Source: Lachnospiraceae bacterium NK4A179 (GTDB lineage: Bacteria; Bacillota; Clostridia; Lachnospirales; Lachnospiraceae). Taken from it: a stretch of 45,152 nucleotides of DNA. Both the position numbers and the translations under genes were made by a program. The DNA lies in contig ATWC01000026.1 of the NCBI GenBank assembly GCA_000421045.1, positions 1 through 45,152 of the forward strand. Reading direction: 5' to 3'. The notes under the pieces were generated by a model. The model did not search any database. It was not told the origin of the DNA and was given only the letters and a program-made list of their open reading frames with translations. This document shows, one piece after another, positions 167 through 27,183 of this stretch; within the stretch, counting starts at the first letter, position 1, and each line of letters begins with the position of its first letter.

Positions 167-360
167 GTTGACTGCAGTGCGGCGGTGCATATGTGTTCAT
201 TCCGTACCCTGAGCTGCGGCGATAAAGTTACGGGGCTGATGCCCGGCGAACAGCGCCTGGCAACATCAAAGTCTGACAGGACTTTGATGTTCCGCGGTGT
301 GAGCGCCCGCTTGCGAAGGGTTAAGGAAGGAATCACATATCACCGCCAAAGCACTGTAAC
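167..360 (+). repeat. Structured repeat element, copy 1 (long-helix RNA/MITE-like)
   Basis: This 194-nt element begins GTTGACTGCAGTGC and ends GCACTGTAAC. Its two ends form a long interrupted helix: GGCGGTG (181-187) with CACCGCC, ATATGTG with CACATAT, and TTCATTCC with GGAAGGAA. Inside are short hairpins (GGGC/GCCC, GGCG-AACA-GCGCC) and a 12-bp perfect hairpin (262-273 with 280-291, loop TGACAG). Positions 170-219 are identical over 50 nt to 17151-17200, and CGCTTGCGAAGGGTTAAG recurs in the 3' half of both copies. The internal hairpin is completely different between copies but perfectly paired in each. Strand is assigned arbitrarily. It could be a structured RNA (HEARO/omega-RNA-like is one possibility) or a non-autonomous mobile element. 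Confidence 0.7.
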
Positions 361-11023: not shown

Positions 11024-11237
11024 AACTTCCTACACCGTGCAGTGTTATCTGACGGTGTTTGAGAGAGCCGTAGTAGTTCTCGAAAATGCATAAGATCACC
11101 AGGAACGGGCTGCCACGGATGGCGGACCGATGCGAACTGTGAGCGGTTCCGGAAAAAAGAATAGCCTTGGGCATTTTCGTAAGAACTACTTAGCGAACGA
11201 TTCCACCGTCAGATAAGGCTGCATGGTGTGGGAAGTT
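11024..11237 (+). ncRNA. Large structured RNA element in the acyl-CoA ligase leader
   Basis: A 34-nt arm (11024-11057) pairs with 11204-11237 with essentially one mismatch plus a few G-U pairs. After an asymmetric internal loop of 12-14 nt per side, AGTAGTTCT/CGAAAATGC (11072-11089) pairs with GCATTTTCG/AGAACTACT (11171-11190) around a 2-nt bulge. The apex holds smaller hairpins, e.g. GCCA-CGGA-TGGC and GGACCG...CGGTTCC. A small hairpin, GTGTT-AGC-AACAC, follows before the AGGAGG site. The order of paired and unpaired parts fits an RNA more than a simple palindrome. No known riboswitch is recognised; it could also be a mobile element related in architecture to 167-360 and 17148-17340. Confidence 0.65.
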
Positions 11238-17147: not shown

Positions 17148-17340
17148 GTCGACTGCAGTGCGGCGGTGCATATGTGTTCATTCCGTACCCTGAGCTGCGG
17201 AGATACAGTTACTGAGCCAAACATTTGCGAACAGCGCATAAGAAAAAAGAAATCCCAACAGGGATTTCTTTTTTTGCGGTGTGAGCACTCGCTTGCGAAG
17301 GGTTAAGAAATGAACCACATATCACCGCCGCACTGTAGAC
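17148..17340 (+). repeat. Structured repeat element, copy 2 (carries a swapped terminator hairpin)
   Basis: A 193-nt relative of the element at 167-360. The 5' part 17151-17200 is identical to 170-219, and the 3' part shares GCGGTGTGAGC and CGCTTGCGAAGGGTTAAG. The end helix is kept: GGCGGTG/CACCGCC, ATATGTG/CACATAT, TTCATT/AATGAA. The outermost pair is GTC/GAC where copy 1 has GTT/AAC, a compensatory change. The internal variable site holds a different hairpin (17243-17274). The element lies between the AT-rich lipoprotein and the convergent HerA-like gene, and its internal hairpin can terminate both. Confidence 0.72.
17243..17275. terminator. Bidirectional terminator inside structured repeat copy 2
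   Basis: AAAAAAGAAATCCC-AACA-GGGATTTCTTTTTT is a 14-bp perfect stem with a 4-nt loop, A-rich on the left and T-rich on the right, so it can stop transcription from either side. Confidence 0.8.
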
Positions 17341-27092: not shown

Positions 27093-27183
27093 TATAATTA
27101 AGACAGATCAGGAAACTGATTGGGGCTGACCGAAAGGTCTTGGTCCACCGAAACGGCGTGGGGATCCCGCGCCATTTTTTTTT
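27093..27183 (+). ncRNA. Candidate small RNA/terminated leader
   Basis: A TATAAT (27093-27098) is followed by ATCAG-GAAA-CTGAT, GACC-GAAA-GGTC, then a GC-rich hairpin (27155-27173) with nine T at 27175-27183. The result would be a transcript of about 80 nt ending in a textbook terminator. The two GAAA-capped hairpins suggest a compact fold. Alternatively it is simply the terminator of the proC-methyltransferase operon plus read-through structure, as the -35 is poor. No named RNA family is recognised. Confidence 0.5.

Follow-up and report, generated by a model that had tools for sequence, protein, structure and literature searches.

The window analyzed here, a stretch of 45,152 nucleotides from Lachnospiraceae bacterium NK4A179, carries two copies of a structured sequence with shared outer parts and different internal hairpins, and it raises the question of whether such a pair reflects a selected RNA structure, a modular element that accepts new hairpins or, as the first-pass annotation suggested from architecture, a HEARO/omega-RNA. 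The window is contig C26 of a 3.2 Mb draft genome in 73 contigs (G000); we call its two copies C26a (copy 1) and C26b (copy 2), and name the others after their contigs. Both copies were verified at 167-360 and 17148-17340, as was the identical 50-nt 5' block ascribed to them, 170-219 matching 17151-17200 letter for letter. With up to three mismatches allowed, the first 26 nt of this block are found at two places in the window and at none in 100 shuffles, and the two copies fold far better than their dinucleotide shuffles, with z-scores of -9.5 and -10.0 and none of 200 shuffles folding equally well. The internal hairpins, described as having 12 and 14 bp, do differ in this way when each insert is folded alone: that of copy 1 forms an unbroken stem of 12 Watson-Crick pairs and one G-U pair, with two further pairs past a bulge, and that of copy 2 forms 14 Watson-Crick pairs and one G-U pair. 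A closing pair said to change from T-A to C-G (169 versus 17150) can be read by eye, but it is ambiguous because of an insertion at that point on the 3' side.

The conserved frame folds into a single long, imperfect hairpin, modelled with 37 pairs, in which the arms are followed by a helix of ACCCU-GA-GC against GC-GA-AGGGU, then GCGG against YCGC, and a one-sided loop of 26 nt; beyond the loop, GC-GA-ACA-G-CGC faces GCG-G-UGU-GA-GC, and the apical insert follows. All features given here lie on the forward strand. The core frame of copy 1, as modelled by our covariance model R1 (162 positions, 37 pairs), spans 184-344 and scores 172.9 bits. Within it, the 5' side of the ACCCU-GA-GC helix lies at 206-214, with the first tandem G-A motif at 211-212 opposite 315-316, the 26-nt one-sided loop, of variable sequence, at 220-245, and the 5' side of the apical helix at 246-256, which includes the second tandem G-A motif (248-249 opposite 301-302) and a G-G mismatch (253/297). 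The 3' side of the core, GCGGTGTGAGCGCCCGCTTGCGAAGGGT, occupies 294-321, and its first 23 nt are, by eye, among the stretches best kept across species. In copy 2, arms and core run from 17151 to 17337, the modelled core being 17165-17326 (170.8 bits), and the 26-nt loop at 17201-17226 is unlike that of copy 1 in sequence. The insert is the replaceable unit: in copy 1 it is a 37-nt hairpin of the type AACATCAAAGTC (257-293), which agrees with those of C49 and C15 in 36 of 37 letters, and in copy 2 a 38-nt hairpin of the type AAAAAAGAAATCCC (17238-17275), which is 97% identical to that of C19. The element may extend further outward, in copy 1 to 151-392 by sequence reading, which would include an outer stem of GGCGCTGCA (151-159) and TGCAGCGCC (384-392). 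Such a stem, which would correspond to the terminal inverted repeats of a MITE, is visible by eye in 7 of the 10 copies having both flanks; in a partner test that left out C49, own left and right partners were not significantly better paired than reshuffled ones (p = 0.09), and the outer ends of the element are uncertain.

The annotation had named a lack of further copies anywhere as an outcome that would refute it; further copies exist, and they form a dispersed family. The window's genome, that of a gut bacterium, holds 11 complete copies, defined by an end-to-end match to the model, together with fragments: two on C26 (model matches at 160 and 17142) and one each on C49, C15, C2, C12, C59, C10, C6, C9 and C19. 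Two more are cut by contig ends, on C27 and C29. The C29 copy is probably the same locus as C15, since the two ends overlap by 343 identical bases, and the end of C27 shares 107 identical bases with that of C49, which would fit a single locus but is no proof of it. Lone right-arm fragments are found on C1, C15 and C19. Beside the C10 copy lies a mini-copy from which the core is deleted (L066:5115-5154), its arms joined as TTCCGGAAGGAA. At C15 (L070:7599-7648) and C19 (L069:4655-4712), an inverted copy of the element's own right arm precedes the full copy and shares with it, by eye, letters specific to that locus.

Outside this genome, the distribution of the element is sporadic. Among 35 genomes of the genus, 23 of which reach 90% completeness with no more than 5% contamination, model R1 found it in three, namely the window's genome, the metagenome-assembled RUI090 and Lachnospiraceae bacterium XPB1003, and found none in the other 32. 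RUI090 and XPB1003 represent two other species of the genus, and their copies are diverged and partly arranged in tandem arrays. A scan of 397 genomes of the family under stricter filters gave three matches, of which those in the window's genome and XPB1003 are clear; the third (G109; 29.8 bits, covering model positions 55-124 only) was judged from reading the DNA to be a chance match. A 23-nt pattern, allowed up to three mismatches, occurred in the same 397 genomes only in the window's genome and XPB1003. In a collection of named genomes, which possibly lacks the window's own, exact matches to a degenerate core pattern were confined to XPB1003 and RUI090. The plasmids and phages searched gave no match to the element, and viral contigs gave none to the exact core pattern; a looser pattern picked out 27 viral stretches, and all 27, scanned with the model, remained without a match at E up to 10. 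The arrays (L031:1400-2130 in RUI090, L032:1460-2110 in XPB1003) combine full copies with partial units of about 82 bp that contain the 3' half only, and the 3' strand of these units could, by eye, pair with a new partner (ACTTGCAAGC/GCTTGCGAGT). A CRISPR reading of the 82-bp arrays was discarded, as no spacers were seen by eye.

The frame is kept as a fold. In a refined alignment of 18 rows (17 distinct), which was fitted to the structure model and contains related copies whose kinship was not removed, 97.0% of cells are paired, compared with 90.9% in shuffled and 31-54% in slid controls. Cells in which both partners have changed number 29 against 7.7 in shuffles, and pairs with such double changes number 10 against 5.5, a value reached by none of 500 shuffles. 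One of the five measures, the number of further pair types, was not above chance (17 against 16.0, equalled in 199 of 500 shuffles). A plain MAFFT alignment of 11 rows gave 94.0% paired cells and 12 double-change cells against 3.5, and again no excess of further pair types (14 against 14.2). In the copies of XPB1003 and RUI090, the first helix reads UCAC/GUGA, the arms are different yet paired, and the apical hairpin is shorter. Unpaired features are kept as well: the first tandem G-A motif is GA/GA in 14 of 15 complete copies and GA/GG in one, the second motif and the G-G mismatch are each present in all 15, and the one-sided loop, variable in sequence, is 26 nt long in 10 of the window genome's 11 complete copies and 27 nt long in C12. 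In this respect, correction of quasi-palindromes could produce paired changes without selection, yet it should erase conserved mismatches.

The fold also has a preferred strand. With RNA and with DNA parameters alike, the named strand folds more stably than its reverse complement in all 15 complete copies, which, being related, are not 15 independent observations; the mean advantage is 9.8 kcal/mol with RNA and 4.7 kcal/mol with DNA parameters. For comparison, two copies of an unrelated repeat family had strand preferences of opposite signs. A count of G-U against A-C cells gave 29 versus 7, with four arm pairs of the XPB1003 and RUI090 rows out of register; once those cells were removed it gave 21 versus 3, at 6 and 3 pairs. 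One pair dominates this count, so the polarity rests on the folding comparison. The modelled polarity points to a folded single strand, with RNA and single-stranded DNA not told apart. Covariation and strand polarity thus agree on a selected fold, in keeping with the first part of the earlier proposal, and the arms change with compensation rather than by the uncompensated drift that it had named as the opposite outcome.

Whether hairpins move between frames was addressed with ten copies of the window's genome and a frame of 100 columns, using Mantel tests. These left out the half copies at contig ends (C27 and C29), the mini-copy beside C10 and the copies of XPB1003 and RUI090, as well as C9, which lacks a hairpin, from the tests that involve hairpins. 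In the ten copies of this genome that carry one, the apical insert is 34-42 nt long and folds with an unbroken stem of 13-17 pairs. By eye, seven of the ten hairpins look related and make up an A/T-rich group, within which some differ by paired changes, and a second type is common to three complete copies (C26a, C49 and C15). Distances between left and right halves of the frame are correlated (r = 0.72, p = 0.003), while frame and hairpin distances are not (r = -0.02, p = 0.52). Four combinations of C19, C59 and C15 were then left out in turn. Leaving out C19 gave 0.37 for left-right (p = 0.03) and 0.11 for frame-hairpin (p = 0.18); leaving out C19 and C59 gave 0.39 (p = 0.06) and 0.18 (p = 0.12); and leaving out C15 and C19 gave 0.26 (p = 0.08) and -0.14 (p = 0.74). 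With left-right values down to 0.26-0.39 and frame-hairpin values up to 0.18, the contrast shrinks and the test leans on few copies, so that more weight falls on single cases. Between C26b and C19, 18 of 100 columns of the frame are different, and no other frame is as distant from that of C26b; their hairpins are nonetheless 97% identical. Conversely, the two window copies have identical left frames (0 of 38 columns) and hairpins that differ by 47%, and C2 has the same right frame as C49 and C15 (0 of 51) with a hairpin 42% different. C26a combines the hairpin type of C49 and C15 with a frame that belongs to another subgroup. Convergence is possible, given how short and A/T-rich the hairpins are. 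Because hairpins do not follow the frame while the frame halves follow each other, these comparisons lend modest support to a swap of the hairpin between copies; of the alternatives first offered, the modular element that accepts hairpins is accordingly favoured by this mosaic more modestly than the selected fold is by its own evidence.

All complete copies sit between longer genes as called by our own simple gene caller, and C26a, C59 and C49, near contig ends, lack one flank each. Short ORFs of 70-124 aa overlap 7 of the 11 copies on different strands, and no ORF overlapping a copy reaches a Pfam cut-off (best HTH_Tnp_Tc3_2, E = 0.0042, 17.8 of 31.5 bits). Among 20 neighbouring proteins scanned, 18 have Pfam families. 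They represent unrelated housekeeping genes, including an AraC regulator, a HerA helicase, an amidohydrolase, glutamine synthetase III, DNA polymerase III alpha and RecD2, and no transposase or RNA-guided nuclease is among the 20. No target-site duplication was seen by eye at the copies. Searching the 73-contig draft with both ends of the element returned only copies, fragments and weak matches (E of 0.3 or more), and an autonomous partner could be absent from this assembly. At one locus the element is present in some congeners and missing in others: a gene that we take to be serA-like adjoins a presumably DUF1015-like gene in 7 of 30 loci compared, with element arrays in RUI090 and XPB1003 and none in five other congeners. 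The five element-free spacers measure about 190-560 bp, reach at most 11.4 bits with the unfiltered model (E of 0.11 or worse) and are too diverged to display an insertion joint. In the window's genome, the DUF1015-like gene (C8) lacks both an adjoining serA and an element.

Several other repeats and RNA matches were observed in the same genome. A second, unrelated palindromic family of about 290 bp by eye, with a central hairpin AAAAATCGGTC/GACCGATTTTT and a predicted energy of -148 to -167 kcal/mol, lies at L069:4700-4960 (C19) and L065:4783-4996 (C59), where it adjoins the first, and at L179, L180 and L181 (C63, C47 and C52); its places include several contig ends. The window contains, at 11024-11237, an Rfam TwoAYGGAY RNA (11058-11201) inside 34-nt inverted arms, and the arm is met again, over about 27 nt, at L065:5052-5080 and L180:232-260, next to members of the second family. 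In this genome, TwoAYGGAY is possibly a palindromic element that has become dispersed. Window positions 27122-27170 match the Rfam DUF3800-XI RNA with 48.5 bits. On C20, a RAYT-like Y1 transposase gene (L175:1811-3043) lies between inverted repeats of about 104 bp that are near-perfect palindromes and unrelated to the element.

Several explanations of the family have to be weighed. An orphan HEARO/omega-RNA, the remnant of an IscB or TnpB element, would share with it the general look of a structured sequence in several copies. Unlike such RNAs, however, the element has no match in Rfam release 15, a search of 100-450 with models including HEARO gave no HEARO match even at E up to 10, and no partner nuclease was found: the three carrier genomes contain no TnpB domain and no IscB over the curated cut-off, and no nuclease is present among the 20 neighbours. 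One weak IscB stretch of 77 aa lies on C51 of the window's genome; in controls, 9 of 14 genomes matched below the cut-off and none over it, so that the sensitivity of this search is unproven. This candidate is already largely refuted, and we consider it extremely unlikely. Four weak Rfam matches at E up to 10, the best to sR19, a model of a C/D snoRNA that contains no pairs (E = 0.009, 20.2 bits where the gathering threshold is 45), were put down to chance, and an idea of guide or bridge RNA was dropped, the longest matches between loop and flank being 7.1 for own and 7.0 for other flanks (10 copies, C49 left out). The covariation, the strand polarity and the conserved tandem G-A motifs would also suit a structured RNA used by the host, either a small RNA or a cis-acting 3' element, that is multi-copy by chance and whose fold is selected for a function in the cell. 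It also agrees with this that the left neighbour reads in the direction of the element in 7 of 9 copies with a called left neighbour; C26a and C59 are not counted, and the opposite-reading cases are C10 and C15, the latter having a 183-aa ORF without a Pfam match. Against a host function stand the 32 of 35 genus genomes without the element, the unrelated neighbouring genes, the orientation in XPB1003 and RUI090, where the element strand is opposite to the upstream serA-like gene, and the existence of fragments and a core deletion, and we regard it as unlikely.

Movement as palindromic DNA by a transposase of the REP type (RAYT/Y1) that acts on single-stranded DNA, as in REPs or TIRtrons, draws on a published hypothesis of palindromes moved by RAYTs (PMC3733652, from the portion available), on two Y1_Tnp genes in the window's genome and on a polarity that holds with DNA parameters too. 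Yet RUI090 has the element without a Y1_Tnp match, and Y1_Tnp is present in 15 of 35 genus genomes, 13 of them element-free, which shows no relation between the two. Neither Y1 locus (C20 and C56) carries the element, the C20 gene being flanked by its own palindromes, and no tag is consistent, with GTAG in 5, CGTC in 2 and neither in 4 of 11 copies by eye; we give this explanation little credence. Intrinsic, possibly two-way transcription terminators that have been copied around would account for the A/T-rich hairpins with T-runs in several copies and for convergent neighbours at four, but a scan of the two window copies found no terminator, the C26a hairpin type has no T-run, C9 has no hairpin, and a terminator alone does not need a conserved frame on its far side, all of which makes this very unlikely. 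Finally, the family could be a mobile element that functions as a single folded strand of RNA or DNA and trades loop and hairpin cassettes through its conserved frame. Two of its parts would then be variable, the loop with its fixed length of 26 nt and the plug-in hairpin at the apex, and a partner enzyme would have to be postulated; we see only a slim chance of this.

We think it likely that the element instead represents a family of interspersed repeats in Lachnospiraceae, about 190-240 bp long, non-coding and non-autonomous, that works like BOX, bcr and MITE-type repeats. This is because its copies are scattered between genes and keep a one-strand fold, because hairpins differ or are missing independently of the frame, and because the distribution is sporadic, with one locus occupied or empty among congeners and with fragments and a core-deleted copy. 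Copies would be spread in trans by an enzyme that acts on, or tolerates, the folded strand. With a frame conserved on either side of the hairpin, copies would be able to trade hairpins by gene conversion, which would be the simplest mechanism, and, where co-transcribed, the folded strand might serve in RNA as a 3' end or a structured spacer. A benefit to the host would not be required.

The likeness to BOX, bcr, ERIC and REP is one of the way of working and does not imply homology; for the BOX and bcr kind it consists of dispersed short copies, mostly intergenic and non-coding, with a conserved, highly paired fold. In the part of the BOX literature consulted here (PMC3049150), boxA and boxC form most of the fold, and boxB, which interacts little with them, may be missing or occur several times; clustering and mutual insertion are described for BOX, RUP and SPRITE, which are regarded as parasitic, and mobilisation of BOX in trans by an IS is proposed rather than established. 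Like BOX of Streptococcus as described there, our element is a small dispersed repeat whose outer modules make the main fold and whose inner module is self-folding and optional, a likeness of architecture by description with no sequence comparison to boxA, boxB or boxC behind it. Unlike BOX in that account, its inner hairpin is replaced rather than multiplied, and conservation extends to two tandem G-A motifs and to the length of a loop. The bcr repeats known from the Bacillus cereus group are likewise dispersed and limited to a group, with lengths of 100-400 bp; in the excerpts available, bcr1-3 are MITE-like and bcr10 and bcr18 likely RNA elements with conserved structure (PMC3446304, PMC6542083), and the copy number of our element is below that of bcr1 (average 39 per strain) and above that of bcr4-18 (average two). 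Stem-loop repeat families share a predicted fold, ERIC giving one long stem-loop, and the accessible text on them does not mention an exchangeable apical hairpin (PMC2267715). With REP/RAYT systems, as far as the available text describes them (PMC3733652), the element shares folded palindromic repeats in a genome with Y1 genes; it differs in being about 190 bp instead of 20-40 bp, in having no consistent GTAG/CGTC tag and in that the Y1 genes are not flanked by it.

Among the papers surveyed for such repeats in Lachnospiraceae, nothing relevant appeared. On the best reading, the family is a new case of an established kind of small structured bacterial repeat, and it adds one without a match in Rfam release 15 to a class that is poorly understood. 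Its preference for one strand makes the choice between a DNA palindrome and a folded single strand directly testable. If it is true that the two halves of the frame share a history that the hairpin lacks, these repeats would offer a natural system for how palindromic DNA exchanges its centre.
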